This document shows, one piece after another, positions 11,190 through 59,978 of a stretch of 64,000 nt of DNA (position 1 is the stretch's first letter; every line of letters begins with the position of its first letter). Source of the stretch: a virus. A model generated the notes under the pieces. It was not told the origin of the DNA. It saw only the letters and a program-made list of their open reading frames with translations, and made no database searches. Location: positions 62,001 to 126,000 of IMG/VR virus record IMGVR_UViG_3300026518_000006. One strand, 5' to 3'. Position numbers and translations under genes: made by a program.

Positions 11190-11585
11190 TTAAACAAAGT
11201 ATTGAGGGTGGGTTTTTAACATTTTTGCAACAAAATCCTTTTCTGTTTCATCTCTATTCTTTTCATATTCATTAATATCTATACAGCCAAATACTTCCAA
11301 AAATTCATAATGGTCATCATTGGATGAGTCATAGCCTTTATCACGAAACAACACGATAGCGTCACTCATAGGGTCTTTGCCACTAATCTTAATAATGTCA
11401 GACAATTCAACTTGTTTTTCATTGCTATTTGTGATATATCCTATAAATTTTGAACGAATGTCCCCTAAATCTCTGTTTTCGGCTAACATTTTTTTATAAT
11501 TAAAATAATAATTATATAGGATAACATCTCCAGTTTTTAATTCGCTCAATATTTTTTCACTTTGCGTTTTTGTTGTATTGTTCAT
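11190..11585 (-). CDS. Small protein with C-terminal HPQYFV
   Basis: 131 residues; ATG 11585 after AGGAGTTATA. The N-terminal half (TGDVILYNYYFNYKKM) resembles a small beta domain. The protein ends MLKTHPQYFV, one of fifteen in this window with this C-terminal peptide. Last gene of the operon running from 13108 to 11190. Function unknown. Confidence 0.6.
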   Translation of the reverse strand: MNNTTKTQSEKILSELKTGDVILYNYYFNYKKMLAENRDLGDIRSKFIGYITNSNEKQVELSDIIKISGKDPMSDAIVLFRDKGYDSSNDDHYEFLEVFGCIDINEYEKNRDETEKDFVAKMLKTHPQYFV

Positions 11586-11593
11586 TATAACTC

Positions 11594-11890
11594 CTATATA
11601 AAATATTGAGGGTATTCATTAATCAGATAATTAACCATCTGCTTCGCTTTCTCTATTTTTTTATCATATGTATCTTTATTTGCTGTTTTGTTGCGACTTT
11701 TTTTTGTGTTTAATTGTTGTCTTGATAACATAGATATGCGGTTTAAAAGAGCATTATAAAATACTTCAGGAGTGATATCCTTTTCATCATAACCAATATT
11801 TTTTGCTTCATAAAATTCAATTGTGTAAAGTTTATATTCCTCAAATGAGGGGCAACTTTCAGGTTTTGATTGCACGGTTCTATATCGCAT
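11594..11890 (-). CDS. Small protein with C-terminal YPQYFI
   Basis: 98 residues, Lys-rich and helical, ending MVNYLINEYPQYFI. Its ATG at 11890 lies inside the last codons of the upstream gene (GAGTATGCGATATAG encodes both that gene's EYAI-stop and this start), so the two are translationally coupled. Function unknown. Confidence 0.6.
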   Translation of the reverse strand: MRYRTVQSKPESCPSFEEYKLYTIEFYEAKNIGYDEKDITPEVFYNALLNRISMLSRQQLNTKKSRNKTANKDTYDKKIEKAKQMVNYLINEYPQYFI

Positions 11891-12116
11891 ACTCAGGAAA
11901 CTCCTCTAAAAATTTTTTGTGCGGATAGTAAGCAAAATCATTTCTACTGCTGAACAGCCTTATTTCCTCTTTATCAGTTACCAAATAACGATAAGTATTT
12001 GCGCCCATTTTGGTGTTTGTTATAATAATTTTTGCTTTGCCTACAGCAATTGGTTTTTCATTATTAAATCTACTAAAAGAATTTTTCCAAAGTACATAAT
12101 ACCCTTCATTATTCAT
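11880..12116 (-). CDS. Small protein with C-terminal FPEYAI
   Basis: 78 residues, beta-rich, ending KKFLEEFPEYAI. ATG 12116 is preceded by AAGGATTGTT. Overlaps the next gene by 11 bases. Same operon and same C-terminal peptide family as its neighbours; no other similarity seen. Confidence 0.6.
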   Translation of the reverse strand: MNNEGYYVLWKNSFSRFNNEKPIAVGKAKIIITNTKMGANTYRYLVTDKEEIRLFSSRNDFAYYPHKKFLEEFPEYAI

Positions 12117-12125
12117 AACAATCCT

Positions 12126-12362
12126 TTATATAAAATATTCAGCATTTTGTTTCACTATTATATCAATTTTTTCCTGATAGTATGCTATATCATTTCTGAG
12201 AGATAAAAGTGTAGGAGTATCACAGACAGTTTCATTTATATAAAAACTCATAAGACTTTCGGAGTGCTTTATTTTATCTTTGTAGTATTCGACTTTTATG
12301 ATAGGTTTAGGTTTAGGCTTTTCGATGGTGCCCTGATACACTTCGCCATTAAATATTTCCAT
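12126..12362 (-). CDS. Small protein with C-terminal NAEYFI
   Basis: 78 residues ending IIVKQNAEYFI, where Ala replaces the usual Pro of the shared C-terminal peptide. A Pro/Lys repeat (KPKPKPII) lies near residue 17. ATG 12362 follows AAAAAGGTTAAGT. Function unknown. Confidence 0.55.
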   Translation of the reverse strand: MEIFNGEVYQGTIEKPKPKPIIKVEYYKDKIKHSESLMSFYINETVCDTPTLLSLRNDIAYYQEKIDIIVKQNAEYFI

Positions 12363-12384
12363 ACTTAACCTTTTTGTTTGTTTT

Positions 12385-12573
12385 TTAAATGAAATATTGA
12401 GGAAAATGCTTTATAACATAATCTTTATGTGTGAACACAAAAGATTGTTTGAGTAGTTTACTCTTCAGCTTTTGATACTCTTTAATTTCTTTTTTTGAGA
12501 TTTCCATCATATCCAAATTCTTCTTAACAGAAGCTTCAAAAGCTTCTGATGGTTTAGTCGAGGTGGTTTTCAT
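12385..12573 (-). CDS. Small helical protein with C-terminal FPQYFI
   Basis: 62 residues. I choose ATG 12573 (MKTTSTKPSEAF) because GAGG lies ten bases upstream; a TTG-initiated frame further upstream would have no such site. It overlaps the end of the previous gene by 20 bases. The C-terminus is VIKHFPQYFI. Function unknown. Confidence 0.55.
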   Translation of the reverse strand: MKTTSTKPSEAFEASVKKNLDMMEISKKEIKEYQKLKSKLLKQSFVFTHKDYVIKHFPQYFI

Positions 12574-13108
12574 AAAATGTGTCCTCAAGTGAACAAGGAT
12601 TCACATAAGAGTCTTTCACTTTTAGACCATTTTGTGTGAATTTACCCTCAATAGTCTTTCCTGTGGGAGTTGGGTCACAAGAAACATTTCCTGTCCATCC
12701 AATGTCACCTGATACCCATTTTTTATCAAGCTCTTCCAAAATTACTTTATTTCCTTTAATATCGATAACTTTATAGAAGTAGTTGAAAGTCATAGTGTAG
12801 CTAAAAACTCCTCTCAGGTAAGAGCCCACTTTAATCTCAGATTTCATTTTTTTAAGAGCTTCTTTTTTTGCTTCTTTTCGAGCTTTTTTTTCTTCTTCAT
12901 ATCTTCTGAGATTGTTGATATACACCTCAACTCTTTTCTCCATAGCTTCCATATTTTGATGACGCTCATAAAAGTCGTACTTCTTTTTTCTGCCTGAATA
13001 TGCTACCACAACCACTTTGCCGTCTTTTTCTTGTTTATAAGATACCTCTGACTTAACATCTTCAAACTTCAGCATTTGACCACCATCAATATAAAATCTT
13101 TCTCTCAT
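12554..13108 (-). CDS. Early protein, first gene of the 13.1-11.2 kb operon
   Basis: 184 residues from ATG 13108, in the recurrent leader AAAGGATTGAAAATG. A Lys/Glu/Arg-rich helix (residues ~55-90) separates two beta segments; the second (GSYLRGVFSYTMTFNYFYKVI) is seen in small phage proteins of unknown role. Unlike the next five genes it lacks the PQYFI end (its own is YENHLD). Transcribed from the cassette at 13138-13166. Confidence 0.6.
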   Translation of the reverse strand: MRERFYIDGGQMLKFEDVKSEVSYKQEKDGKVVVVAYSGRKKKYDFYERHQNMEAMEKRVEVYINNLRRYEEEKKARKEAKKEALKKMKSEIKVGSYLRGVFSYTMTFNYFYKVIDIKGNKVILEELDKKWVSGDIGWTGNVSCDPTPTGKTIEGKFTQNGLKVKDSYVNPCSLEDTFYENHLD

Positions 13109-13137
13109 TTTCAATCCTTTATCTCTTTTTATACCCT

Positions 13138-13166
13138 ATTATATAATAGTCTTTAGTAGAAGTCAA
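13138..13166 (-). promoter_or_regulatory. Early sigma-70-type promoter cassette
   Basis: On the minus strand TTGACT (13166-13161), 17-nt spacer, TATAAT (13143-13138), then a ~30-nt leader with AAAGGATTGAAA before ATG 13108. Member of a family of nine. Confidence 0.8.
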
Positions 13167-13207
13167 GTAGTTTGGAAGATTTTTTTAAAATTTTTGTGTA
13201 GTTTTGA

Positions 13208-13245
13208 AGATTTTACTTTTTTAAAAAGTAAAATCTCTTGAAGAG
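13208..13245. repeat. AT-rich inverted repeat upstream of early promoter
   Basis: AGATTTTAC - T/A core - GTAAAATCT (13208-13236), abutting the palindrome CTCTTGAAGAG (13235-13245), about 42 bases upstream of the -35. The same element recurs near 18336, 29772, 38583, 39442 and 49843. Confidence 0.7.
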
Positions 13246-13257
13246 GTGAGGAGTAAA

Positions 13258-13749
13258 TTACCTTTTTCGTCTTTCTTTTCCCGTCTTTATGTATAATTCA
13301 TTTTTTGCTTTCTTTATCAACTTGTCTGTACCTTTAAACATTTCTCTTGTGTTCTTAAAGTCTTTACTATAAGTTGAGGCGTAAACAAAGTCATCGGTTG
13401 CAGGCACTGTTGGTTTATTTGCAGATAAAATAGCAAACTCATCACCGCCTATTCTAAAAATACAACCGTCAAAGTTGTCCACTAAATAGCGGGCTACTCT
13501 TTTTATAAGCGAATTTCCTGCCAAATATCCCTGTTGCTCATTAACAAAATGTAGTCCGTTTATATCAACCAAAGTCAAGTAAAAATTTCTGTTGTTTAAT
13601 TTATACTTGTTAAATAAATCATTGAAGTCTTTTGATAATTTAAAGCCTGTAAGAAAATCATAGCGATAACTATTTAGTTCGGCTTCCAAATGTTTGATTT
13701 TTTCTTTTAGTAGCTTGTTTTCTAATGCTAATTCTTCTATAGTTTCCAT
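13258..13749 (-). CDS. GGDEF-domain protein
   Basis: 163 residues: a coiled-coil start (residues 1-27), then a short GGDEF domain. Visible signatures are D-F-L-T-G near 32, LVDINGLHFVNEQQGYLAGN near 60 (metal-site Asp and the N-x-x-x-G-x-x-x-G-N motif) and FRIGGDEFAIL near 98, with the GGDEF loop intact. Diguanylate cyclases make c-di-GMP from two GTP. The C-terminal third is shorter than in usual domains and no sensor is attached, so it may be an enzyme, a GTP or c-di-GMP binder, or a decoy. Confidence 0.75.
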   Translation of the reverse strand: METIEELALENKLLKEKIKHLEAELNSYRYDFLTGFKLSKDFNDLFNKYKLNNRNFYLTLVDINGLHFVNEQQGYLAGNSLIKRVARYLVDNFDGCIFRIGGDEFAILSANKPTVPATDDFVYASTYSKDFKNTREMFKGTDKLIKKAKNELYIKTGKERRKR

Positions 13750-13805
13750 ACTAACTTCTTTAAATTATTTTAAGAAGCATAGCACAAAAATAGCAAATAT
13801 CAATC

Positions 13806-14180
13806 TTATTTATCTAATTTTTTATATTCGTTGTATATTTTTTCGAGTCTTTCTGCTTCTTCCTGTAATGTATTGAGCGCATTTATCAATACCCCTTTTG
13901 ATACTGCTCTATTTATAAATTTGACAAATGGTATAAATACTGCAAAAGGGAATAAAATAGAAAAACTTTCTTTTTTTATTATTTTCTTTTTTGGTAGATT
14001 AGAGCGATAAAAATGTATTACAGTATTGTAATTGTCCATTTTTTTAGTAAGCTCAACAAATTTTACCGCATCCATACGCATACCCTCGACACCACCTATA
14101 ACAATAGTGTAAGTTATAGTAAATAATATCAGTATGATATTAAAAATATAGCCAAATAAAATTATTTCTAATAACCCCAT
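13806..14180 (-). CDS. Membrane protein, unassigned
   Basis: 124 residues. Residues ~5-30 form a strong transmembrane helix, a second hydrophobic stretch is near residues 76-92, and the C-terminal 30 residues are coiled coil. Located between the GGDEF gene and topoisomerase genes in one minus-strand run. Role unknown. Confidence 0.5.
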   Translation of the reverse strand: MGLLEIILFGYIFNIILILFTITYTIVIGGVEGMRMDAVKFVELTKKMDNYNTVIHFYRSNLPKKKIIKKESFSILFPFAVFIPFVKFINRAVSKGVLINALNTLQEEAERLEKIYNEYKKLDK

Positions 14181-14183
14181 AGT

Positions 14184-30528: not shown

Positions 30529-32694
30529 TTATCCTTTTATATTTAAAATTGGTTTAATATGGTCTACAACCTCCACAAGGTCTTTTTGTAGTTCCATTAC
30601 TTCAAATATATTTTTATAAGCCTTTGGACTTTCATCAATCGTGTTATCTGAGTGGTTGGAGACTATCCCTTTCATATCATTATGAAATTCTTCCACATCA
30701 AGTTCTGTTTTGGCTTTCGCTCTTGATAATACTCTCCCCGCACCGTGAGAACTTGAACACATACTATCAACATCCCCTTTACCTTTTATTATAAATGAGC
30801 CATCACGCATATTTCCTGGGATTACGCCATACATCCCTTTATCTGCTTGTGTAGCTCCTTTTCGATGAATAACAAAATCATCAAAAACTTCTGCGTGATT
30901 ATGGTTTCTATTAATAAACATAAGCTCTTTCACAGATTCTTTTAATTGTTTATTAATAAGCCCTTTAATTACTTCTCCCATTCGTTTTCTGTTTTCAAGC
31001 GCAAACTCTAAACCAACATTTAAATCTTTGAGATAGTTTTTTCCATTATCACTATTAATATCAAATGAATAATGACCTTCTAAATTAGTTTTTAATCTCG
31101 CTCTTACTCGTCTATAAACGAACTCCTCCAATGCTTTATCATATTTTTCAGGATTATGTTCTCTCCAAGTATTTTTAGCCTTAAACTCATCAATATATCG
31201 TTGCTCATCTGTATTTGTAATTGCAGATAGTTTCATATAATGCTCTGCAATCTTGTAACCAAATCCTCTTGAGCCTGAGTGTATTACAATCCAAAGCTTA
31301 CTGTCTCTACCTGTCCCAAGCTCTATGAAATGGTTTCCGCCACCTAAAGTACCAAGCTGATATTTGGCAGTTTCAAACGCCTGTTTAGCAATATTAGTAC
31401 ATTCACCCAAATTATATTTTTGAGGTTTTGTGTGTTTTGCTGACCCAACAGGTATTTTCTCAACTATGTCGTCTTTAAGTTTATTTAAATCCAACTGTTT
31501 ATAATCAACATCAAGTTTAATAGCCGACATTCCACAATTTCCTGTAATAGATATTTTGCCATTTCTTCGTTGTACCCAATATCCTGTTTCGGTAGTAAAA
31601 CAATAAGCCTTACCATCTTCACTTTTAACTCGTTTTATATATTTTGGTTGTGGTAGCCCCACTATCTCATTATTAGTTGAATATAAATTATAAGTTGGGT
31701 TCCAATTTTCTTGGCACTCTTTTTTGTATTCTATTTTATGAAATCCTACCCGAACCCCGCTAACAGAAAAGGCGTACTGAATTAAATCAATATTCTCTTT
31801 TTGGTTGCTTGAAAATGTAAATCTACCATCTTGTTTTATATGCCCATCCCATAATTTAGACTCATTAGCAACAATTTCTAATTGTTTTTGATTTGCACCC
31901 CAAAGAAAACTTAAAGATTTAGTAGCTATTGGGGGGGTAAAACTGCAACTAAAATTTCCATTGGCTCTTGTATGAATATTAGGTACTATATTCACTTTAT
32001 CTAAAATGCTCAATAATCTGTCGATTTTTCGTTGTTTTATTAAATGAAATTCGACAATATCTTTTGTTCTTTTTCTTCTTCTAATGGTGCCATCTGCACT
32101 AATAGCAACTTGTAGTTGAATTTCAGCATCTGATAAATCTACCCCACCACCACTTAAATTAAAAGTAGTTTTGAAACCACCTTGAACCCCCTTTTTTAGA
32201 GATTTATGTTTTTTTAATAAATCTTTGGTTAAAAAATCTTTTGTTTTATATCCTTTTTTCTTTGACCCCATAAACAATAAAACTTTATGGTCATCCGTCA
32301 GCATTTGGTTAGTAATCTTATTATCAATTAAATTAAAATATTCACAGTCTTTTTTAATATACGCTAAAGGCATAGCAAAATTAGCGGTATCTGTTTTAAC
32401 ATCATACTGCAAAATTTCTTCATTATTATAATTACTAATCTTTACCCAACCTTTTTTTGTTAAATACTCGGTATCTTTATCGGTACACCCAATATCATAC
32501 CCGACATAAGAAGGAAATATTCTACCTTTTGATTTGATTACAGCACCAATTGGCAATGTATAACCTGTGTGGGAATCGGGCATTAGAGCACCCTGAATAT
32601 TACAGTCTAAGTTCATAGCTTCTCTAAACTGATTAATTGCATCTTGTTCCAATACTTCAGCATAAATTTTAGTGTTAGGTATTCCTAAATTCAT
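30529..32694 (-). CDS. rtcB: RNA ligase RtcB interrupted by an intein
   Basis: 721 residues: RtcB halves 1-69 and 387-721 (404 together, normal size) with a 317-residue intein at 70-386. RtcB motifs are MPDSHTGYTLPIGAV, GYDIG|CGMSAIK (the Cys after the splice is the Mn-binding residue), GGGNHFIELG, HSGSRGFG and SSHGAGRVLSRAKA with the guanylylated His. It joins 2',3'-cyclic phosphate ends to 5'-OH and could repair tRNAs cut by host nucleases; the tRNA cluster is next door. Splicing is needed for activity. Confidence 0.9.
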   Translation of the reverse strand: MNLGIPNTKIYAEVLEQDAINQFREAMNLDCNIQGALMPDSHTGYTLPIGAVIKSKGRIFPSYVGYDIGCTDKDTEYLTKKGWVKISNYNNEEILQYDVKTDTANFAMPLAYIKKDCEYFNLIDNKITNQMLTDDHKVLLFMGSKKKGYKTKDFLTKDLLKKHKSLKKGVQGGFKTTFNLSGGGVDLSDAEIQLQVAISADGTIRRRKRTKDIVEFHLIKQRKIDRLLSILDKVNIVPNIHTRANGNFSCSFTPPIATKSLSFLWGANQKQLEIVANESKLWDGHIKQDGRFTFSSNQKENIDLIQYAFSVSGVRVGFHKIEYKKECQENWNPTYNLYSTNNEIVGLPQPKYIKRVKSEDGKAYCFTTETGYWVQRRNGKISITGNCGMSAIKLDVDYKQLDLNKLKDDIVEKIPVGSAKHTKPQKYNLGECTNIAKQAFETAKYQLGTLGGGNHFIELGTGRDSKLWIVIHSGSRGFGYKIAEHYMKLSAITNTDEQRYIDEFKAKNTWREHNPEKYDKALEEFVYRRVRARLKTNLEGHYSFDINSDNGKNYLKDLNVGLEFALENRKRMGEVIKGLINKQLKESVKELMFINRNHNHAEVFDDFVIHRKGATQADKGMYGVIPGNMRDGSFIIKGKGDVDSMCSSSHGAGRVLSRAKAKTELDVEEFHNDMKGIVSNHSDNTIDESPKAYKNIFEVMELQKDLVEVVDHIKPILNIKG
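31537..32487 (-). other. Intein in RtcB (LAGLIDADG-type insert)
   Basis: Residues 70-386. It starts with Cys (CTDKDTEYLTKKGWV, block A), has the block-B motif MLTDDHKVLL and ends ISITGN before extein Cys387. The penultimate residue is Gly instead of the usual His, which is uncommon. The middle holds two degenerate LAGLIDADG segments (QVAISADGTIRR and ANESKLWDGHI), so homing activity may persist. Confidence 0.85.
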
Positions 32695-32707: not shown

Positions 32708-32998
32708 TTATACAAAATATTGTGGTGCATATTCTGCAAAAAGTTTTGAAATTCTGTTTTTATTATATCGTGATTTACCAAAAATCAACAGAGTGTAAAT
32801 GTTGTGAAGCTCTTCTTCAGAAACTTCATCTACATAACCCCTCAAAATCTCTAAGTCTAAATGCCTATGCAACAATATGTCTGTCAACATACCATTGATG
32901 TACACATATACATTAAAATCATCGTGTTTTATAAACTCGACACAATCATCACCAACATTAATAAAACCCTGTAAAGATTTTTGAACATCAAAAAGCAA
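32708..32998 (-). CDS. Small protein with C-terminal APQYFV
   Basis: 96 residues, acidic N-terminal beta domain and helical end closing in LFAEYAPQYFV. ATG 32998 follows AAGGAGATATTTTG. Between RtcB and another member of the same C-terminal-peptide family. Function unknown. Confidence 0.55.
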   Translation of the reverse strand: MLFDVQKSLQGFINVGDDCVEFIKHDDFNVYVYINGMLTDILLHRHLDLEILRGYVDEVSEEELHNIYTLLIFGKSRYNKNRISKLFAEYAPQYFV

Positions 32999-33030: not shown

Positions 33031-33339
33031 TTAAACAAAGCATTCGGGGTATTTTTCAACCAATCTCTTTTTAATTTTTTCTTTATCTCCATATATTACA
33101 TAATCTTTACTTAAAATGTATTGAAAAGTTTCATCATCACTTATCAGTTCTTCATAGTAGCTATATGAATCTGTTTCATACACACGAGAGTTTGTAATAA
33201 CAAAAGTTATGTCCTCAAAGAATTCAAAAAAATCATCATCAAAATCATCAAACCACCACTCTTCATAATATTCATCTAAATCATATATAGAAAAAATATT
33301 TTTTGGGATTTCTTGTATGTTTCTATAATGAAGACTCAT
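33031..33339 (-). CDS. Small acidic protein with C-terminal YPECFV
   Basis: 102 residues, extremely rich in Asp, Glu, Tyr, Phe and Trp (YYEEWWFDDFDDDFFEFFED). The end is LVEKYPECFV, with Cys in place of Tyr in the shared peptide. The run of negative and aromatic residues could mimic nucleic acid. Upstream lies the tRNA-Arg gene. Confidence 0.55.
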   Translation of the reverse strand: MSLHYRNIQEIPKNIFSIYDLDEYYEEWWFDDFDDDFFEFFEDITFVITNSRVYETDSYSYYEELISDDETFQYILSKDYVIYGDKEKIKKRLVEKYPECFV

Positions 33340-35914: not shown

Positions 35915-36247
35915 CTAAACAAAATATTCAGGGTACTTTTCTATTATTTTTTCAAAGAAGTCACCTTCGATGAAATCATATTGTGGAAACAACGCTTTGG
36001 CACTTTCTAAAGGAAACTTAGCACCATAAGCCATAATATATGCTATATCTCTATCCTCATCACTAAGCCCTTGCCCCTTTAGATTTGGGGCTTTATACCT
36101 TTCTGATGCGATAGATTTAATGTAGCTTTTGTATTGTTTAGTAACTAAATCTTGACATATAACAATGCCTACATCTTGAAACCAACAAACATCTATACAT
36201 ACTATATTGTTGCTGTTAATAAATTTTTTGTTTCTATCAAGATACAT
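35915..36247 (-). CDS. Protein with C-terminal YPEYFV
   Basis: 110 residues from ATG 36247 after AAAAGGGAAAGAA. Contains YIMAYGAKFPLESAKALFP and ends FEKIIEKYPEYFV, the shared peptide. First gene upstream of the tRNA cluster on the same strand. Function unknown. Confidence 0.55.
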   Translation of the reverse strand: MYLDRNKKFINSNNIVCIDVCWFQDVGIVICQDLVTKQYKSYIKSIASERYKAPNLKGQGLSDEDRDIAYIMAYGAKFPLESAKALFPQYDFIEGDFFEKIIEKYPEYFV

Positions 36248-38660: not shown

Positions 38661-39329
38661 TCAAATAAAGTACTGAGGAAAGTGTTCTTTACCGAACTCA
38701 ATATATTTTTGTTTAATGTCTTTGTCTAACTTTACATTAGGATAGTAATACTCGTTTTCAAATGAAGTTATTTTGTTATCATAACAATAAAAATTGCCCT
38801 TAATATCAGGACAGTATTTAAATGAAGTTATCTGATTATAACTACAATAAAAATCCCCATTAATATCAGGACAAAACTTAAATGAGGTTATCTCGTTATA
38901 GGCACAATTAAAATCACCCTTAACATCAGGACAAAACTTAAATGAAGTTATTTTGTTTCTACTACAATAAAAGTTATCCTTAATATCAGGACAGTATTTA
39001 AATGAAGTTATCTGATTATAACTACAATAAAAATCCCCATTAATATCAGGACAAAACTTAAATGAGGTTATCTCGTTATAGGCACAATTAAAATCACCTT
39101 CAACATCAGGACAAAACTCAAATGAAGTTATTTTGTTATTATGACAACTAAAGTCACCCTCAATATCAGGACAGTACTTAAAGGAAGTTATTTTGTTATA
39201 ACTACAATAAAAATTGCCCTCAACTTTTTTATAACAACCTTCCAATGAAGTTAATCCTTTATCAGAGATATCAAGGTCTCCATTATAGACTTCATTTGAT
39301 TTGTCTCCATAGAGGTCTTTGAATGTCAT
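38661..39329 (-). CDS. Tandem-repeat (LRR-like) early protein with C-terminal FPQYFI
   Basis: 222 residues from ATG 39329; the longer frame starts upstream of the promoter. About eight 20-residue repeats of the form ITSFKYCPDIKGDFYCSYNQ, visible in the DNA as a 60-bp period, form a right-handed or LRR-like solenoid of cysteine ladders. Ends GKEHFPQYFI. A paralogue at 49144 shares both ends and the repeat. Repeat number differs between them, suggesting recombination. Likely a protein-binding surface; target unknown. Confidence 0.65.
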   Translation of the reverse strand: MTFKDLYGDKSNEVYNGDLDISDKGLTSLEGCYKKVEGNFYCSYNKITSFKYCPDIEGDFSCHNNKITSFEFCPDVEGDFNCAYNEITSFKFCPDINGDFYCSYNQITSFKYCPDIKDNFYCSRNKITSFKFCPDVKGDFNCAYNEITSFKFCPDINGDFYCSYNQITSFKYCPDIKGNFYCYDNKITSFENEYYYPNVKLDKDIKQKYIEFGKEHFPQYFI

Positions 39330-39883: not shown

Positions 39884-40834
39884 ATGATGGATTTAAAGAA
39901 CATACTATATTTCAATAGCACAAGAACCAACACATTAGCAATTTTGAACTCATTGAATAATATAAAGCATTGGGTTAAAGATGAAGATGGTAATGATGTT
40001 GAAAAAATAGTGCCCATTTCTTTTGGTAATTATGAGAAATCCATAGCCCTTGAAGATATAGGAGTGGAGCAGTTAAAAAGTGCAAAATTTAATGTTATAC
40101 CAAGACTTGTGCTTAGTTTTAGAGGTATGAAAAAAGCACACGAAAGAACAACTTCAAAATACCAAAAAATTGCCAAAAGAGTAACTGGTTCTGACGGTAG
40201 AATATCTATAAATTTTGGTTACAACAGCGTCCCCTACGATTTTAGTTATACACTAACACTTCAAGCTCGTGGACTTAACCAAGCATTTATGATTGTGGAA
40301 CAAATACTACCAAGATTTAGACCATCTTATACTATTGCAATAAAAGAATATCCTCTTTTTCAAGACAAAACTGAAACACAACTATTAATTGAAGACCCAA
40401 ATTTTGAAATTATTGAAGAGTTTGAAGATACAGATGTGAATATAGTCAATGTTACATTTGAATTAACTCTCAGAGGAAATCTCTATATGCCACTCCAAGT
40501 ACAAGGTCCTATCAAGATTGTGACTTTGATGAATTATTTGTGGGATAACTATGAGATTGAGGAAAGTCAATTAGCAAGACATTATGAGTGGGAAGTATGT
40601 GAAAAAGACGGCTATATCTATCACGAAAATCTCAATAGAGTATATGCACCACACAAACTTATTATTGAAGATGATAATACACCTGAACCACCTGTTGTTT
40701 CCCCTTGTGTGGATGAGTGTCACGGAACAGTTATCAATAGTGAAGGGTATGATGATTTACAAACTGAAGAGAAACATAGTTCTATAGTCACTGAACACCC
40801 ATTAGAGAATAAACGCCCTGAGTGTGATGTGTAG
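39884..40834 (+). CDS. 15: Tail sheath terminator / stabiliser, gp15-like
   Basis: 316 residues (T4 gp15 272). Shared features: N-terminal ILYFNSTRTNTLAILNSLNN then VPISFGNYEKS; a central FSYTLTLQARGLNQAFMIVE followed by QILPRFRPSYTIAIKEYPLF, very close to the T4 I-V-E-Q-I-L-P-x-F-x-P segment; and a Pro/Glu-rich C-terminal tail. The protein caps the tail for joining to the neck. The tail carries two cysteines (PCVDEC) of unknown role. Confidence 0.78.
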   Translation: MMDLKNILYFNSTRTNTLAILNSLNNIKHWVKDEDGNDVEKIVPISFGNYEKSIALEDIGVEQLKSAKFNVIPRLVLSFRGMKKAHERTTSKYQKIAKRVTGSDGRISINFGYNSVPYDFSYTLTLQARGLNQAFMIVEQILPRFRPSYTIAIKEYPLFQDKTETQLLIEDPNFEIIEEFEDTDVNIVNVTFELTLRGNLYMPLQVQGPIKIVTLMNYLWDNYEIEESQLARHYEWEVCEKDGYIYHENLNRVYAPHKLIIEDDNTPEPPVVSPCVDECHGTVINSEGYDDLQTEEKHSSIVTEHPLENKRPECDV

Positions 40835-45057: not shown

Positions 45058-45393
45058 ATGTTCAACACAAACAACACAAGAAAAAAATACAGAGAAATGA
45101 TACCCGAAGGACTGTATTACTATGAAGGAACAGAGGTAATCAAAATAACAAGAATTGTCAAAGATGAATTAAATGGAGTAGTGGTTTACTCAATGAATGA
45201 TGTAGTGGATTCATTTACACCTAAAACCTATACTTGGTATGATGTAAATAGAATTACACCATCTTTAGATTCAGCTATCAACAGCTGTATAAAAAGAAGA
45301 ATAGAAAGTGCAAAACATACTATTCAGCGTTGTAGAGAAAATATTGAAAAAGAGCAGGAGTGGATAGAATCATATCCACAGTATGCTATCTAA
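45058..45393 (+). CDS. Small protein with C-terminal YPQYAI (plus strand)
   Basis: 111 residues from ATG 45058 after AAAAAGGAG; the longer frame begins in the -10 box TATAAT (45024-45029). Contains an SH3-like LYYYEGTEVIKITRIV and ends EWIESYPQYAI. The only plus-strand member of the shared C-terminal-peptide set. Overlaps the convergent gene by four bases. Confidence 0.6.
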   Translation: MFNTNNTRKKYREMIPEGLYYYEGTEVIKITRIVKDELNGVVVYSMNDVVDSFTPKTYTWYDVNRITPSLDSAINSCIKRRIESAKHTIQRCRENIEKEQEWIESYPQYAI

Positions 45394-47636: not shown

Positions 47637-48397
47637 CTATTATTATAGGCTTTGGGTTTGTTGGACAAGCAGTGTATCACTCTTTATTAAATAAAAGAAT
47701 GGATGTTATGATTATAGACCCGAAACGAAATACCTATACAAATAGTATAGAGTTTAGGAATGCCATTACTGCAAGTGAAATGGCAACTCAACCCACACTC
47801 ATTGTTTGTGTGCCTACACCACAAAATCCTGATGGAAGTGTAGATTTAAAAATCTTTTCTGATGTATGGAAGGACATTAAGAATTTTGATGGGCTTATTA
47901 TTATCAAAAGCACAATACCAAAAGAATTTATTCCTGCACAAGATAATGTAGTTTATAATCCTGAATTCTTGAACGCCAATACTGCTAATGAAGATTTTAT
48001 GAATCAGAAATATGTGGTATTGGGTGGTGAAATGGATTGGACTTGTAAAGCTGAAGATTGGTATAGAAACTATACTGTAATAGGTAGATATGATGATGTT
48101 TATTATGAGCACTGTTCGAAAGATTTAGCTTCTGATTTTAAATATATGAGAAACATATATAGTGCTTATAAACTTATGTTTTGGGAATTTGTTGAGGATG
48201 TGACAGGAAATAGCAGAAAAGTATCAGATATGATGAAGCATATTCCTGTAAGAGAAATGGACATTGTTGGGATGGATGGTTTTAGAGGATTTGGTGGAGC
48301 TTGTCTACCGAAAGATACAAATGCCCATCACGATATCCATAGACACAAATTAACCGAGTTTCTTTTAGATTACAACAAAGAGCTTCAATCTAAATAA
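47633..48397 (+). CDS. UDP-glucose/GDP-mannose dehydrogenase family protein, short
   Basis: 254 residues from GTG 47633 (AAAGGATAAACA upstream), overlapping the deacetylase-like stop. Rossmann start IIIGFGFVGQAVYHSLL, VCVPTPQNPDG, NPEFLNANTANEDF, and GFRGFGGACLPKDTNAH with the catalytic Cys. The C-terminal UDP-binding domain of full-length enzymes (~430 residues) is missing, so it may be a minimal enzyme or truncated. Confidence 0.78.
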   Translation: MTIIIGFGFVGQAVYHSLLNKRMDVMIIDPKRNTYTNSIEFRNAITASEMATQPTLIVCVPTPQNPDGSVDLKIFSDVWKDIKNFDGLIIIKSTIPKEFIPAQDNVVYNPEFLNANTANEDFMNQKYVVLGGEMDWTCKAEDWYRNYTVIGRYDDVYYEHCSKDLASDFKYMRNIYSAYKLMFWEFVEDVTGNSRKVSDMMKHIPVREMDIVGMDGFRGFGGACLPKDTNAHHDIHRHKLTEFLLDYNKELQSK

Positions 48398-48779
48398 GAT
48401 ATTCAGGGGAGTTTTCAACTTTTTTGATTAAGCTGTTGTAAAACTTTCTCTCTTCATCGGATATTTTTTTCTGTATATTTCTGAGTTCTTGTTTCAGTGG
48501 AAGTACAACTTTTTCGATTTCTATTTCAGAATCAAACAAAACCTTTTCCGTCACTTCATAAAACTTTAGTGCCTTTTTGTAGTCGTCAAATACTTTTATG
48601 TTGTTGTTTGTTTTAGAGAACCTTGAAGCATCATTTGAATTATAAACGAAATAGTGTCTTTCATTTTCTCTTTCCACAGCAAAAATTCGGACATTTTTTT
48701 TAACAACTGTAACTATGTATTTCTTGAATTTTACATCTCGTTCAAAACCGTACTCTATGTTCTGAATATCTTTATACAT
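48390..48779 (-). CDS. Small protein with C-terminal SPEYLI
   Basis: 129 residues: beta-rich first half (KKYIVTVVKKNVRIFAVERE), coiled C-terminal half, end LIKKVENSPEYLI. Second gene of the operon from the early cassette at 49077. Overlaps the convergent dehydrogenase gene by eight bases. Function unknown. Confidence 0.55.
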   Translation of the reverse strand: MYKDIQNIEYGFERDVKFKKYIVTVVKKNVRIFAVERENERHYFVYNSNDASRFSKTNNNIKVFDDYKKALKFYEVTEKVLFDSEIEIEKVVLPLKQELRNIQKKISDEERKFYNSLIKKVENSPEYLI

Positions 48780-49143: not shown

Positions 49144-49752
49144 TTAAATAAAATACTGAGGAAAGTGTTCTTTGCCGAACTCGATATATTTTTGTTTAAT
49201 GTCTTCGTCTAACTCTACATTAGGGTAATAATATTTGTTTTCAAATGAGGTTATCTGATTATGATTACAATTAAAACCCCCCTTAATATCAGGACAGCAT
49301 TTAAATGAAGTTATTTTGTTTCCCCTACAATAAAAATCACCATTAATATCAGGACAATACTCAAAGGAAGTTATTTGATTTCCATTACAATAAAAATCAC
49401 CCTTAATATCAGGACAATACTCAAATGAAGTTATTTTGTTTCTACTACAATAAAAGTTATCCTTAATATCAGGACAGTATTTAAATGAAGCTATTTGATT
49501 ATCATTACAATTAAAGACACCGTTAACATCAGGGCAAAACTCAAATGAAGTTATTTTGTTTCTACTACAATAAAAGTCACCCTTAACATCAGGACAGTAC
49601 TTAAATGAAGTTATTTTGTTATAACTACAATCAAAATTGCCATCAACTTTTTTATAACAACCTTCCAATGAAGTTAATCCTTTATCAGAGATATTAAGGT
49701 CTCCATAATAGACTTCATTTGATTTGTCTCCATAGAGGTCTTTAAATGTCAT
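49144..49752 (-). CDS. Tandem-repeat (LRR-like) early protein with C-terminal FPQYFI, paralogue
   Basis: 202 residues from ATG 49752. Same N-terminus (MTFKDLYGDKSNEVYYGDL), same 20-residue repeats (ITSFEYCPDIKGDFYCNGNQ) and same C-terminus (GKEHFPQYFI) as the protein at 38661, but with about seven repeats and different residues at the variable positions. The pattern of a fixed frame with changing solvent-exposed positions suggests diversifying binding surfaces. Confidence 0.65.
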   Translation of the reverse strand: MTFKDLYGDKSNEVYYGDLNISDKGLTSLEGCYKKVDGNFDCSYNKITSFKYCPDVKGDFYCSRNKITSFEFCPDVNGVFNCNDNQIASFKYCPDIKDNFYCSRNKITSFEYCPDIKGDFYCNGNQITSFEYCPDINGDFYCRGNKITSFKCCPDIKGGFNCNHNQITSFENKYYYPNVELDEDIKQKYIEFGKEHFPQYFI

Positions 49753-49782: not shown

Positions 49783-49811
49783 ATTATACAATAATCTTTA
49801 ATAGAAGTCAA
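49783..49811 (-). promoter_or_regulatory. Early sigma-70-type promoter cassette
   Basis: Minus strand TTGACT (49811-49806), 17 nt, TATAAT (49788-49783). The AT-rich inverted repeat and CTCTTGAAGAG lie at 49843-49880. Confidence 0.8.
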
Positions 49812-49886: not shown

Positions 49887-50348
49887 CTAAATAAAATATT
49901 CAGGTATTTTCTTATATACCTTAACCATCTCCTCTTTTGTTAATGGTCTCCCATCTTTATACCACTCTTTTTCGTCATCATTAATATACTCTATCGCAGG
50001 TAAATAATTTTCACGCCCTATTTTACCTCCAATATGCCACACTTTTCTATTACAGTCTATAATTGGCTGTATTTCTTTTTCTTTTTTTAAAAATCTGTCT
50101 TTTTCCTCCTCAAACCCTCTGTATCTCCATATTCTTTTAATATGTGCGTCCATAATATTGTGCTTCCAACCATTGATATAATATAAAGGCTGAAGAGTAT
50201 GACTGCCTGTTCTCTCCATCATCAAGGTTTTTCCTAATAAACTCTTCGGTACTTTTTCGTTAAAAGCATTTAGCTTTTCGCTATTGTCGATGATTTCTAC
50301 AATAACAACCTCACCAAAATCTAAATCTGTTACCGATATCTTTTTCAC
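49887..50348 (-). CDS. Small protein with C-terminal IPEYFI
   Basis: 153 residues from GTG 50348, chosen because AAAAGGAAGTGAT precedes it and because it removes a 158-base overlap with the upstream gene. Contains IWRYRGFEEEKDRFLKKEKE and ends KVYKKIPEYFI. Function unknown. Confidence 0.5.
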   Translation of the reverse strand: MKKISVTDLDFGEVVIVEIIDNSEKLNAFNEKVPKSLLGKTLMMERTGSHTLQPLYYINGWKHNIMDAHIKRIWRYRGFEEEKDRFLKKEKEIQPIIDCNRKVWHIGGKIGRENYLPAIEYINDDEKEWYKDGRPLTKEEMVKVYKKIPEYFI

Positions 50349-50370: not shown

Positions 50371-51102
50371 TTACACAAGATATTGTGGATAATGTGTGGT
50401 AATCCACTCAAGAAATTCAGGAGTCTTTTTATTAATTTTGTTGATTGGTATATCGATTTCCCCACACCCAATTGAATAATTCCATTCTGAGCGACTATAA
50501 TCAGTTTCAATTTTATACAACATTCCACTAAAAGTTAAACTTCCTTCTATAAAATCAGCTCTAATATACCCTTTTATTGTACCATCTTCATCAAAAAGAG
50601 TAGACCACAAATAAACATTATAATCGCAATCATCATATCTTTCGCCATACCCTATATATCGCTTAAACATTTCCCAACGCTCTTTATATACTAAATTCAG
50701 TATGTTCAAAATGTCTTTATATTTGTATAACATTGTTTGAATATCAATATAAGTATTATCACCAAACACCACCATCCGATTTTTCTCGTGTTCAACTGTA
50801 AGTAAATCAAAAGTGTTTTCATCTGTAGCTTTTTTATATAATTCTAAAAAAAACTCTTTGATTCTTTGGAAATTTAGCAAATTACTATAACCATAATCTC
50901 TAATTGCCGTATAAGACATTGATTTTTCAACAAACCCATAGGTTCTTTCTATTTCAACCTCAAGCCTTTCAAATTGTCTTTTTATTACTCTTAATGTGTG
51001 TATTATTTCAAGGATTTGTTTGTTGGTTAAAGGATTTCCGACCAATAATACCTTCTCCATTTTTGTTATTTCTTCAAGGTATGAGTTACACATAGATTCC
51101 AT
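50371..51102 (-). CDS. Protein with C-terminal YPQYLV
   Basis: 243 residues, the longest non-repeat member of the shared C-terminal-peptide set. Helical first 130 residues, then a beta-rich domain with YNVYLWSTLFDEDGTIKGYI, ending LEWITTHYPQYLV. ATG 51102 follows AGGATGTAAT. Function unknown. Confidence 0.55.
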   Translation of the reverse strand: MESMCNSYLEEITKMEKVLLVGNPLTNKQILEIIHTLRVIKRQFERLEVEIERTYGFVEKSMSYTAIRDYGYSNLLNFQRIKEFFLELYKKATDENTFDLLTVEHEKNRMVVFGDNTYIDIQTMLYKYKDILNILNLVYKERWEMFKRYIGYGERYDDCDYNVYLWSTLFDEDGTIKGYIRADFIEGSLTFSGMLYKIETDYSRSEWNYSIGCGEIDIPINKINKKTPEFLEWITTHYPQYLV

Positions 51103-55698: not shown

Positions 55699-55713
55699 TT
55701 CATTTCCTACAAT

Positions 55714-56331: not shown

Positions 56332-56334
56332 CTT

Positions 56335-56733: not shown

Positions 56734-56798
56734 AACTCTTTTTTTTTTAAAGCCATTTCATTAAGTATTAAATCATAAAACATTTCTTTGATGTTCAT
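56709..56798 (-). other. Leader ORF with A10 run and targeting-like peptide
   Basis: ATG 56798 follows AAAGGACAGAAG, an excellent ribosome-binding site. It reads MNIKEMFYDLILNEMALKKK, crosses ten A (slippery for polymerase or ribosome) and stops at 56709 in this frame. The -1 frame enters the gene at 56335. Confidence 0.5.
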
Positions 56799-56816
56799 CT
56801 TCTGTCCTTTAAAGCT

Positions 56817-57866
56817 TTACAACGACTTCGTGAAGAAATCTATAATATCTGCGTGGTCATCAAAAAGTTGCATATTCTTAACCTCTGCAAGTGGCACCCA
56901 TTTAGCATTAGAAGCATCATCAGACCCTTTTACTTTTGGAAGCTTTGGGTATTTGCCTTGAACAAAATCAGGCTCAATTTCAGCATAATAAGCGTTTGTC
57001 ATACGGGGTATTCCCATATTTCTAATAGGATTATCAAAGGTCTTGTATTCTTTGATGCTACCTTTTATTACTTTGTACGGAACCTTGATACCCGTCTCTT
57101 CAAACAGTTCTCTAATAGCACACTCCTCAAAAGTTTCATTTCTATTAACAAAACCTCCTGGAAGAGCATACACGCCTTTTCCTGGGGCGAATTTTCGTTC
57201 TATAAGCAAAACATTTCCTGAACATACAAGTACCATATCAGCACAGCAAAGCTTTAGTGTTTCGGGGTAAGGATAATCTTTAAATTTTTCAGCTTCTTTT
57301 TCGTGATATTCTCTTTCCTCTACCAAATCTTTATAGGCTTCGGTTGTGATGAATTTCTTCATATACTCCAAAGTTTGAGATGGAAGTGAATCTTTAAACA
57401 CCTCTTCTACTCTTTTTGGTGTAGGGTCAAGACTACACAATGTAAAGTACAAATTTCGGATTTCGGTTCCACTAATATTGCCTGCAAGAGACGGGACTTC
57501 TTGGTAATACCAATTCGGAAACTCTTTTAGATAAAAACTTGAAGCGTCTTTTGTGTGCCCGACAAGTGTTATTTTGCCTTGTGCAAGTGAGTTTACAACC
57601 ATTTCGACTTGACTTATCCACTTTTGTTCTTCGTAAAGATAATCTTTGATAGTAGCCACTTTGATTTTTGGGTCAATCGCTTTAATCCAACTTTCAATAA
57701 CATCTGTATTAAAAGGATTTTTTAAGTTTCGTCTTCTATTCGAAGAACCTATGAGAACTATCACATTAGTGTATTCTTTCAACATAATGTCGATTACACC
57801 TTTGTGACCATTGTGAAGAGGGGCAAATCTTCCGATGTAAACCCCTGTTGTGGGAGATATATTCAT
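56817..57866 (-). CDS. nadM: Bifunctional NMN adenylyltransferase / Nudix hydrolase (NadM-Nudix)
   Basis: 349 residues. N-terminal nucleotidyltransferase: VYIGRFAPLHNGHKGVIDIM (H-x-G-H), LIGSSNRRRNLKNPF and ISGTEIRN. C-terminal Nudix box GGFVNRNETFEECAIREL then FEETGI near 235. The first domain turns NMN into NAD; the Nudix domain of such fusions hydrolyses ADP-ribose in known examples. ATG 57866 follows AAGGAGCTTGAT. With nadV and nadK it completes nicotinamide to NADP. Confidence 0.9.
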   Translation of the reverse strand: MNISPTTGVYIGRFAPLHNGHKGVIDIMLKEYTNVIVLIGSSNRRRNLKNPFNTDVIESWIKAIDPKIKVATIKDYLYEEQKWISQVEMVVNSLAQGKITLVGHTKDASSFYLKEFPNWYYQEVPSLAGNISGTEIRNLYFTLCSLDPTPKRVEEVFKDSLPSQTLEYMKKFITTEAYKDLVEEREYHEKEAEKFKDYPYPETLKLCCADMVLVCSGNVLLIERKFAPGKGVYALPGGFVNRNETFEECAIRELFEETGIKVPYKVIKGSIKEYKTFDNPIRNMGIPRMTNAYYAEIEPDFVQGKYPKLPKVKGSDDASNAKWVPLAEVKNMQLFDDHADIIDFFTKSL

Positions 57867-57936
57867 ATCAAGCTCCTTGATTTATTGAATACTTAATGTA
57901 TTGTATGTATTATACTCTCTTTAACTTAAAGGGAGG

Positions 57937-58647
57937 TTAATAATCTGTTCTATGGAAGTTTCCATTTGGTGTTTTAATTATATCATTATACCCATAAAGA
58001 ACAATATTTTCAAAAGCTTTTTTAGGGTTATTTCTATAGTATTTTATAAAAAAATCCACGATACATTCTTTTGTAGCTTTTGTGTCCAACACGAAATTTA
58101 TGTTGTTAGCCCAATCATCAAAATTATACCCCAAATAAAGAACCTCTCTATCATATAACTTTTGAGGGTTATCTATGTCTTTAAGAGTCAGACCATATTG
58201 TCCATCGATAAACTCTTCAAAATTTTTGTATTCAGGATAGTATGCTTTATCTTCTTTCCATTGTGTTTTCAGGTATTTTTTAGCTTCACTAACAAATTTC
58301 TTTATATTTAATAATTTTATACCGCAATTATCTATGATTTTTTCAGCATCTGCTTTTTTTAAAAAGCTGCCTGTAATATCTTTTAATGGATTAGTACTTC
58401 CATAAAACCAATTATCCTCAAAGTATCGCGTAATTTCTTTTTTGTAGTCTTTAGATTTTCCACCCGCAATATATATGTAGTATTTATCTTCAACACCATA
58501 TAGATTGGGCTCTTGTACCAATTCTATATCTTCAGGTGATACTTTTAGTCTTTTAGCTAATTCGGCAAGAGCCTTCTTTGGTGCTTTTCTACTCTCTGTG
58601 ATTGTATTTGCAGATATTGTCGATTCTATAAACATTTTTTTGAACAT
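57937..58647 (-). CDS. Late protein with MFKKMFIES start, candidate internal head protein
   Basis: 236 residues. The first 11 residues, MFKKMFIESTI, are identical to those of the next gene and resemble targeting peptides; a good [IL]-x-E site is ITE then Ser at residue 18. The body is basic and Lys/Tyr-rich. Late box 20 bases upstream. Possibly injected with the DNA. No family recognised. Confidence 0.5.
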   Translation of the reverse strand: MFKKMFIESTISANTITESRKAPKKALAELAKRLKVSPEDIELVQEPNLYGVEDKYYIYIAGGKSKDYKKEITRYFEDNWFYGSTNPLKDITGSFLKKADAEKIIDNCGIKLLNIKKFVSEAKKYLKTQWKEDKAYYPEYKNFEEFIDGQYGLTLKDIDNPQKLYDREVLYLGYNFDDWANNINFVLDTKATKECIVDFFIKYYRNNPKKAFENIVLYGYNDIIKTPNGNFHRTDY

Positions 58648-58667
58648 AACTTTCCTTTTTTTTAATA

Positions 58668-58675
58668 TATTTATA
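58668..58675 (-). promoter_or_regulatory. Late promoter
   Basis: TATAAATA on the minus strand, 20 bases upstream of ATG 58647. Confidence 0.6.
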
Positions 58676-58680
58676 ATATG

Positions 58681-59043
58681 CTATCTCAATATATCGTAAT
58701 ATTTTTTGAGTAATTTAGTATTTTTTCTAATTTGGGGTAACTTTACGCCCCAAAATTTGGCTCTGCTATTAATATCATCATATTTTTTATTAATATAAAC
58801 ATCTTTAGCAAAAGACACAATCCCACTAATATTGTTTTTGGTTAACTCAATTATAACCTTTCTTAATTCAGTATCCTCAATATCATTAAATCCTTGAGTA
58901 TGCTGAGTTAGTACTAATCCGTTTTTATTGATTTTATGCAACTTTTTATATATATCTATAAATGTTTTCATATCTTTAGTATACTTGTCACTTATACCAC
59001 TTACTTCTACTATTGTCGATTCTATAAACATTTTTTTGAACAT
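58681..59043 (-). CDS. Late protein with MFKKMFIES start, candidate internal head protein
   Basis: 120 residues. Same start as the gene at 57937, here continuing IVE followed by Val at residue 13, a possible protease site. The remainder is basic (over 20 Lys) and unrelated to the neighbour, as if a targeting module was attached to different cargo. Late box at 59076. Confidence 0.5.
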   Translation of the reverse strand: MFKKMFIESTIVEVSGISDKYTKDMKTFIDIYKKLHKINKNGLVLTQHTQGFNDIEDTELRKVIIELTKNNISGIVSFAKDVYINKKYDDINSRAKFWGVKLPQIRKNTKLLKKYYDILR

Positions 59044-59075
59044 AAGTTTCCTTTTGTTTTGTAAAACTTTTACTT

Positions 59076-59083
59076 TATTTATA
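59076..59083 (-). promoter_or_regulatory. Late promoter
   Basis: TATAAATA on the minus strand, 32 bases upstream of ATG 59043. Confidence 0.6.
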
Positions 59084-59096
59084 TATTATATACTTA

Positions 59097-59645
59097 TTAC
59101 TTTACGATAACACCATAAAGGCTGTCATCTTTAGCTATAGAAATAAGACCCAAAATAGCTGAACCCACATTGTCCAAGCCACCTCTCAATGGTTGCATAG
59201 TCTTTTTGACGGCTACATATGGAGTGGTCGATGTATGGTTTACCTCAAAAGTTTTAAACAGCTTGACATTCTTGCCACTCTCAAACTCATCTCTTACACT
59301 TTCAAATTCATCTTGAATTTTTTCTCTGAGTTTCTTTTCAAGGTCATAGTCGATATCCACAAAAACAAATGTATTTCCACCTGCTAAAATTTCACCTGTT
59401 CTTTCGTCATAATCAACTTTTTCTAAGTCATCGGCAATGTGTTCGATTTTTCCAAGAACCTTTAGTGCTTTTGAGGATTTTACCTTAACTCTTACCGCAC
59501 TTTCATACCCACCTCTTGAGGTCTTCACTGACACATCTCTGTTACTAAGACCGAGTTCTTTTTTAAGTTTTTCTCTAATGATTTGAGAAGTAGATTGTTT
59601 TTTTGTTTCGTTTAAAATTGTTCCTAAAGTCGTTCCTAAAGTCAT
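59097..59645 (-). CDS. Late protein, candidate internal head protein
   Basis: 182 residues. The start MTLGTTLGTILNE then Thr has a protease-type LNE site at residue 13. The body is Lys/Arg-rich with alternating beta and helix (RGGYESAVRVKVKSSKALKV). Late box at 59666. No known family; grouped with neighbours by promoter and N-terminus. Confidence 0.5.
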   Translation of the reverse strand: MTLGTTLGTILNETKKQSTSQIIREKLKKELGLSNRDVSVKTSRGGYESAVRVKVKSSKALKVLGKIEHIADDLEKVDYDERTGEILAGGNTFVFVDIDYDLEKKLREKIQDEFESVRDEFESGKNVKLFKTFEVNHTSTTPYVAVKKTMQPLRGGLDNVGSAILGLISIAKDDSLYGVIVK

Positions 59646-59665
59646 TTTGGTTCCTTTTGTTTTAC

Positions 59666-59673
59666 CTTATTTA
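59666..59673 (-). promoter_or_regulatory. Late promoter
   Basis: TATAAATA on the minus strand, 20 bases upstream of ATG 59645. Further upstream (59694-59722) is a degenerate copy of the early cassette with altered spacing. Confidence 0.6.
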
Positions 59674-59729
59674 TACAATAAGTATAACCAAATAATCCTT
59701 TATATAATCTTTAATAGAAGTCTGAAATT

Positions 59730-59978
59730 TTAAATAAATAATTCAGGATAAACTTTTTCAAGTTTTTCTGCAAGATTTATCAATCGTTTTAAATCATTTG
59801 CTGTAAAAACAGTATCATCAATATTTATCAGTGTATCGCCCGATATATGAATAGCTGTAGAAGAATCCCAAATAACCGTACCTCCTTGAGAAGTGCAGTT
59901 ATTTAAATTGGCTCCATCAATAAGACTCATCTCCCCATATGGTCTATTTTGTATCGTTACTCCCTCCAAAATCTGCAT
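59730..59978 (-). CDS. Small protein with C-terminal YPELFI, coupled to nrdB
   Basis: 82 residues. The first half is a short parallel-beta pattern (SLIDGANLNNCTSQGGTVIW, pentapeptide-like), the end AEKLEKVYPELFI belongs to the shared C-terminal-peptide set. Its ATG overlaps the nrdB stop (TAATG), so it is co-translated with the reductase. Confidence 0.55.
   Translation of the reverse strand: MQILEGVTIQNRPYGEMSLIDGANLNNCTSQGGTVIWDSSTAIHISGDTLINIDDTVFTANDLKRLINLAEKLEKVYPELFI

Follow-up and report, generated by a model that had tools for sequence, protein, structure and literature searches.

What makes fifteen small and seemingly different proteins of one phage end in the same few residues? The question arises from a 64,000-base window (bases 62001-126000) of the 235,593-base IMG/VR record IMGVR_UViG_3300026518_000006, in which a first-pass annotation had described fifteen proteins sharing a peptide that abuts the stop codon, and had proposed either a portable C-terminal docking or localisation signal or a tag read by one phage or host partner. 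Here we describe this peptide as a C-terminal tag that recurs throughout the genome and in several phage lineages, is held by selection at the protein level, occurs in genome-specific dialects and is linked to one clade of MoxR AAA+ ATPases. The peptide is probably a portable docking tag, and its most likely reader is a phage machine composed of this ATPase and a partner carrying zinc-metallopeptidase and VWA domains.

The record belongs to a T4-like phage, with matches to gp23, the portal and topoisomerase. The closest named relatives of its capsid protein are found in the Vibrio phages Va1, phiKT1024 and Pv27 (~44% identity), followed by Campylobacter phages of the CP220 group. Over the whole record, a simple codon-usage caller predicted 379 genes, absolute gene numbers being slightly uncertain. 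The C-termini of these genes are biased at each position from -5 to -1, towards P (4.7-fold), E (2.4-fold), Y (3.0-fold), F (2.7-fold) and I (2.1-fold), respectively. The strict pattern P[QE]Y.[IV] stands directly before the stop in 30/379 genes against 0.009 expected from composition, while only three internal copies occur in 69,383 residues. Scoring of the C-termini with a weight matrix, for which a chance expectation was obtained per genome, identifies 70 of the 379 genes as tagged, ending [P/A]-[E/Q]-Y-F-[I/V], where ~0.5 are expected; the fifteen of the window are about a fifth of this set. As a short linear motif of about five residues, the tag reads [Y/F/H]-P-[E/Q]-x-[F/L]-[I/V/L]-COOH and follows a helix. 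Tagged genes are short (median ~105 codons), cluster along the record (29 adjacent pairs vs 12.7 expected) and encode soluble proteins, with a transmembrane-like stretch in one of the 70 and in 3/319 over the tagged proteins examined.

The first-pass annotation had suggested testing whether its signal is enriched at the exact C-terminus in the full genome and in related phages, and this is what we find. For comparison, genomes were chosen by the tag (G032, G034 and G036, our own handles, as are similar codes below), by MoxR (G027 and AD45) or, for the remainder, by the capsid protein; statistical dependence through kinship among the phages was reduced by dereplication only. The tag marks 73/300 genes of Va1 (0.35 expected), 72/307 of phiKT1024 (0.3), 44/147 of G001 (0.2), 17/292 of G021 (0.3) and 36/267 of G027 (0.3), five genomes in which it was recovered by de novo C-terminal enrichment, as well as 41/142 of G032 (0.2), 38/344 of G036 (0.4) and 3/122 of the Alteromonas phage AD45-P1 (0.09). 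No tagged genes were found in T4 (0/262), CP220 (0/191), NCTC12673 (0/174) or phiW-14 (0/229), and the tag is absent from G013, G016, G020 and G023 and from N4 and AR9; KVP40 (1/374) and G018 (1/156) are at chance level. A scan of IMG/VR with two 18-base patterns, using the tag DNA alone, returned many more tagged contigs.

Trees of the capsid and portal proteins split the T4-like tag phages into two groups, with the untagged CP220, G010 and G013 between them. G032 (103.5 kb) has a match to the N4-type virion RNA polymerase and 27 proteins in common with AD45-P1, and is probably circular, with its MoxR gene spanning both record ends; the 224-kb G036 lacks gp23 and has a different backbone. The tag is therefore present on at least three unrelated phage backbones: T4-like (two clades), N4/AD45-like podovirus and G036.

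Comparison of the tags between genomes reveals distinct dialects. Position -4 is E in 73/73 tags of Va1, 42/44 of G001 and 16/17 of G021, mixed in the present genome (54 E, 16 Q), and Q in 22/36 but E in 0/36 of G027. At position -1, V is used in 30/44 tags of G001, and I in 35/36 of G027 and 65/73 of Va1. No matching difference is seen between these genomes in their background ratios of Q to E and of I to V. Orthologues change with the genome they reside in; the last residues of one protein are FPEVFI in the present genome, and its counterparts in G001 and G027 terminate in MPELFI and YPFIFI, respectively. Between Va1 and phiKT1024, 59 of 60 tagged orthologue pairs are tagged in both phages, and conservation is strongest within the tag, with an identity of 1.00 at -4 and 0.97 at -5 versus about 0.7-0.87 upstream. 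Dozens of unrelated genes shifting dialect together is what would be expected from one reader with a changing pocket.

A candidate for this reader is encoded in the same genome. Among the T4-like phages, MoxR is the sole family that each of the four near-complete tag genomes encodes and all ten untagged ones lack, and a gene for its usual partner, a metallopeptidase-VWA protein, occurs in the same four tag genomes and otherwise only in G010. In the present genome, MoxR has the Walker A motif GLHGIGKS and the Walker B motif LFLDE. Its partner carries the VWA metal site as DTSGS (DxSxS; DxSGS in 16/16 compared) and the metallopeptidase motif HExxHxxxxH as HESRHIISGH (HExxH in 15/16 compared); in the tagged G034, HNMLH replaces HExxH. 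The two genes are 13 kb apart here, adjacency being usual for such pairs and not strictly defining, and lie close together in G027, G034, AD45 and several IMG/VR loci. All contigs that were found by tag DNA and are large enough to judge (G032, G034, G044, G036 and G043) have both MoxR and metallopeptidase-VWA genes. Moreover, 12/24 immediate neighbours of the two genes in six tag phages are tagged (p = 0.002).

In the MoxR tree, all tag phages fall into one clade (support 97/97), outside which lie N4, phiTE, Pastis, RHph, Tribble, CB2047-B, G038 and AR9. We used this clade for a prospective test, in which IMG/VR loci were taken by MoxR similarity only, placed in the tree and searched for tagged open reading frames (ORFs). 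Tagged ORFs were present in 14/16 new loci within the clade versus 0/15 outside it (p = 5e-7), and in 10/11 versus 0/13 after dereplication (p = 6e-6). In the controls, none of the loci yielded a tag when its DNA was reversed, and 1/2,232 genes of untagged phages passes the same threshold. Tag phages of unrelated lineages thus share one MoxR/metallopeptidase-VWA machine, and the peptide is therefore probably a docking tag for that machine. The idea that any MoxR suffices was discarded, as N4, AR9 and phiTE carry one and no tag. Searches of bacterial genomes returned only two distant MoxR relatives, both lacking tags; sequence comparison linked neither the MoxR nor the VWA protein to a solved structure, and PADLOC gave no result.

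We note two further features of these genes. Three small genes adjoining MoxR (record 161265-162158, - strand) end LTPYLI, IQPYII and IQPYII, which may be a variant derived from the tag. In PHROG phrog_1314 and in GenBank for N4 gp25 and AR9 gp029, the DUF2201 metallopeptidase-VWA family bears the label "HNH endonuclease", apparently an annotation error.

From this evidence, all of it comparative, we infer binding, a direction of action and a role for the tagged proteins as adaptors or substrates. The VWA protein or the ATPase would bind the exact C-terminus, and the ATPase would next pull on, unfold or clip the bound protein. The tagged proteins could be (a) adaptors that deliver different host or defence proteins to the machine or (b) timed substrates themselves. 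Our slight preference is for adaptors, given how many, varied and rapidly evolving the bodies are in comparison with the constant tag. A metallopeptidase domain points to cleavage; the HNMLH sequence of G034 implies that cleavage cannot be general. As a tentative extension, which we consider possible rather than likely, the whole may be a modular system for targeted remodelling or degradation, in which one machine would serve tens of small adaptors with target-binding bodies of their own, the dialect would coevolve with the pocket and the system would move between backbones.

Several observations weigh against the machine as the reader. N4, AR9 and other phages carry MoxR-VWA pairs of other clades and no tag; the pair as such therefore does not imply the tag. 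Within the clade, the loci L328 and L329 lack a tag, though they span only 6-8 kb, and four of the positive loci rest on one tagged ORF each. G010 has the VWA gene with only 2/211 matrix hits, on a contig that is probably incomplete, and the tagged G001, G030, G031 and G041 show no MoxR, although at 37-82 kb they are probably fragments. Given its HNMLH, peptidase activity cannot be essential in the heavily tagged G034. Iyer et al. (2021) proposed a role in virion assembly for the MoxR-vWA-metallopeptidase pair of group 2.2 jumbo phages (PMC7824862), which differs from the role considered here. Finally, a shared host could in principle link the tag and MoxR without any contact between them.

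This last point leads to the alternative that survives best, although we regard it as rather unlikely: a host factor reads the tag, for example because it is a hydrophobic degron recognised by ClpXP, Lon or Tsp or because it binds to a host hub, and the MoxR clade merely co-travels in phages of the same hosts. Hydrophobic C-termini can serve as bacterial degrons, phages of related hosts could have accessory genes in common, and several tag phages encode a ClpP. However, ClpP is found in tagged and untagged phages alike, for which reason it was also rejected as the reader, and KVP40 infects Vibrio as well and is not tagged. Furthermore, the link to the MoxR clade had been predicted beforehand and holds across T4-like, N4/AD45-like and further backbones.

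The proposal of Iyer et al. would make the tagged proteins virion or maturation factors that the MoxR-VWA-metallopeptidase pair handles during assembly. We consider this improbable here, since the late promoter TATAAATA is the nearest upstream promoter for 15/70 tagged versus 175/309 untagged genes, recognised structural genes are untagged and no tested tagged protein matched a structural family. The same promoter analysis bears on the first-pass description of the tagged genes as early. Avoidance of the late promoter agrees with it, whereas enrichment of the strong early promoter is only slight (21/70 tagged vs 57/309 untagged, p = 0.048), and the timing is read from promoters only. The early promoter TTGACTTCTATTAAAGATTATTGTATAAT occurs as 25 near-identical, highly uniform intergenic copies in the record and not at all in the reversed control; besides the copy in Table 1, those of the window begin at 13166, 18302, 29730, 38235, 38561, 39389 and 49105, all on the - strand.

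It is very improbable that the tagged proteins are one fast-diverging domain family of which the last helix is still recognisable. Some relationships do exist: the largest clusters of bodies comprise 16 repeat proteins, 11 members that begin with GDxVxY and 9 members of a third family, and a strand-helix-tag pattern recurs at the protein ends. Nevertheless, when the last 12 residues are cut off and 231 tagged proteins from five phages are compared, BLAST gives 189 clusters and iterative profiles still give 176, of which 157 are singletons, in agreement with the first-pass view that the bodies are unrelated. The tag is also carried by repeat proteins, by 285-379-aa (amino acid) proteins of other families and by a 239-aa family (record 151046-151765) that matches DUF945/DUF932 phage proteins. 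AlphaFold modelled this 239-aa protein with a mean predicted local distance difference test (pLDDT) score of 76 and its tail as a short final helix (pLDDT ~89); the model of one small tagged protein was of low confidence (mean pLDDT 45). Among the smallest tagged proteins, structural kinship beyond sequence detection is possible. A single domain family and a lack of enrichment in related genomes were the two outcomes named in the first pass as contrary to its proposal, and neither was observed. Its pair of repeat paralogues is indeed related but belongs to a larger family, with GDFxCxxNxITSF repeats in variable number, seven copies in this genome and eight tagged relatives in G027. BLAST gave almost no tag-less homologues of tagged proteins in other phages and no direct case of a tag added to a known protein. 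Tagged topoisomerase and sugar epimerase fragments were considered as proof of portability and left unused, their profile matches being marginal once aligned.

Codon usage separates the peptide from its DNA. The tag codons vary and all three stop codons are used. Where the next gene overlaps the stop, the codons become GAG (8/9 here, 18/20 in G001, 15/17 in Va1) and ATA/GTA-TGA (a TGA stop in 19/20 overlapping tag genes of G001), and the same bases form the Shine-Dalgarno sequence GGAG ~8 bases before the ATG of the following gene. Only 53/240 tagged genes of five genomes abut or overlap the next gene in this way. In the other 187/240 codons are mostly nearer background; in this genome and in Va1, the share of GAG declines towards that of the genome as a whole. 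The amino acids are kept there, also before convergent genes or long gaps. G027 uses the codon CAA and has almost no Shine-Dalgarno sequence inside the tag. As codons vary and the tag persists even with nothing behind the stop, it is the peptide that selection maintains; the amino acids come first, and the DNA that encodes them has a second use at gene overlaps. That the motif is a by-product of a ribosome-binding site and an overlapping next start (GGAG...ATGA) read in frame, which the codon bias at overlaps might suggest, is thereby largely refuted and has next to no probability, the more so as P-E(Q)-x-F is not forced by such a sequence. A recombination joint or a late promoter as origin is likewise disfavoured by the variation in codons, by tags that precede gaps and by the dialect of G027.

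All fifteen ORFs of the window are present at the 3' ends given in the first pass, with the C-termini exactly as it had written them (Table 1). The gene caller predicted 14 of them; the ORF at 12385-12588 was omitted by the caller and is nonetheless an open frame with a tag. The starts of 35915-36247, 38661-39329, 49144-49752 and 49887-50348 probably lie further in than first listed. An additional matrix match in the window, 39884-40834 (...RPECDV), is probably due to chance, its homologues in six other phages lacking the motif.

Table 1. Tagged genes and a promoter of the window (window positions), and genes of the putative tag-reading machine (record positions)
Feature	Position	Strand	Basis
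Tagged small protein, 131 aa, ends HPQYFV	11190..11585	-	ORF and C-terminus
Tagged small protein, 98 aa, ends YPQYFI	11594..11890	-	ORF and C-terminus
Tagged small protein, 78 aa, ends FPEYAI	11880..12116	-	ORF and C-terminus
Tagged small protein, 78 aa, ends NAEYFI	12126..12362	-	ORF and C-terminus
Tagged ORF, 67 aa from TTG, ends FPQYFI	12385..12588	-	Open frame, outside the caller's set
Tagged small protein, 96 aa, ends APQYFV	32708..32998	-	ORF and C-terminus
Tagged small protein, 102 aa, ends YPECFV	33031..33339	-	ORF and C-terminus
Tagged small protein, 110 aa, ends YPEYFV	35915..36247 (longer frame to 36283)	-	ORF and C-terminus
Tagged repeat protein, 222 aa, GDFxCxxNxITSF repeats, ends FPQYFI	38661..39329	-	One of seven paralogues
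Tagged small protein, 111 aa, ends YPQYAI	45058..45393	+	ORF and C-terminus
Tagged small protein, 129 aa, ends SPEYLI	48390..48779	-	ORF and C-terminus
Tagged repeat protein, 202 aa, paralogue of 38661, ends FPQYFI	49144..49752	-	Paralogy
Early promoter TTGACTTCTATTAAAGATTATTGTATAAT copy	49783..49811	-	One of 25 copies in the record
Tagged protein, 153 aa, ends IPEYFI	49887..50348	-	Tagged homologue in G001
Tagged protein, 243 aa, ends YPQYLV	50371..51102	-	Tagged G001 homologue, body identity 20%
Tagged small protein, 82 aa, ends YPELFI	59730..59978	-	ORF and C-terminus
MoxR AAA+ ATPase	record 162243-163349 (outside window)	-	AAA_5 E = 1e-10, phrog_1297 E = 4e-63
Zinc-metallopeptidase (N-terminal) + VWA protein	record 176620-178179 (outside window)	-	DUF2201 VWA E = 1e-8

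The G001 homologue of the gene at 35915 (L077, 36452-36784) has NAEYFI at the tag position, without a stop and with 20 more hydrophobic residues; this read-through may reflect a lost stop or a sequence error. Elsewhere in the window, a 721-aa protein (30529-32694, - strand) matches both PhoH-like and RtcB tRNA-ligase families and is apparently a fusion. One C-terminal ORF stretch is present at both ends of the record (37-114 and 235299-235577), which probably has redundant ends. A second C-terminal motif, an acidic stretch followed by W (SLDDW, PNDEW, ADDFGW), was seen in Va1 (MK387337), phiKT1024 and G021. In Va1, 15/300 genes end in W (5.0-fold, p = 5e-7), many of them encoding longer proteins, and this end is possibly a docking tail for another hub.

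Phage accessory proteins of unassigned role are the largest dark matter in phage genomes. A tag that assigns as many as one in three genes of a phage to a single system, for which the same genome encodes a candidate reader, would reduce hundreds of orphan genes to one question open to testing. It offers a homology-free sequence signature for finding host-takeover or anti-defence proteins, and phage MoxR-VWA-metallopeptidase pairs would gain a concrete job. As the tag phages Va1 and phiKT1024 are cultured, with the close relatives Pv27 and phiTY18, the system can be tested now.

The tag invites comparison with known C-terminal signals. The ssrA tag, which ends LAA, is added in trans, and SspB-type tails bind ClpX; in both, a short C-terminal peptide is recognised by an AAA+ machine or its docking domain, while the phage tag differs from ssrA in sequence and is written into the individual genes, each of which uses codons of its own. 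Through hydrophobic C-terminal motifs, gp43, gp55 and gp33 of T4/RB69 dock on one hub, the sliding clamp, but these are a few replication and transcription proteins and not a fifth of a proteome. The Y-F-I end of the phage tag also fits the pattern of class II PDZ ligands (hydrophobic-x-hydrophobic-COOH). Literature text searches returned no report of the C-terminal motif, and the genome papers on phiTY18 and Pv27 mention neither motif nor MoxR. Some tagged genes of Va1 lack any annotation, which may be one reason why the tag was missed.

Parallels are also found among MoxR-VWA pairs, in which the VWA metal site captures a peptide of a client and ATP drives the remodelling of that client (PMC7159879). 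The pair of group 2.2 jumbo phages has the same domain make-up as the one described here, although the tag goes with a single clade of the pair; a search of the text that describes it (PMC7824862) found no C-terminal motif. In bacterial MoxR-vWA conflict systems, FxSxx-COOH precursors stand beside a zincin-like metallopeptidase (PMC7159879). These systems likewise join small variable proteins with a conserved C-terminal peptide to a metallopeptidase and a MoxR-vWA pair, but they are bacterial, use other motifs and, in the FxSxx type, include a radical-SAM enzyme, whereas the phages have up to 73 bearers per genome.

A further close parallel is CbbQO, also a MoxR AAA+ ATPase with a VWA partner. 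CbbQO acts on rubisco only if the C-terminus is exact: its activity is abolished by the gain or loss of one residue, for instance by a single added alanine, the penultimate position is partly replaceable by aromatics only, and the C-terminal 11-mer stimulates the ATPase (PMC4660213). A phage pair reading P-E/Q-x-F-I-COOH would fit this mode closely, in keeping with the strict stop-abutting position of the tag sequences. The differences lie in the clients and in the partner; CbbQO has one client (rubisco, with an H-K/R end), as opposed to dozens of unrelated proteins per phage genome that end PE(Q)xF-I/V/L, and a metallopeptidase domain is present on the phage VWA protein. We regard the tag system as new in kind, built from a known type of machine.

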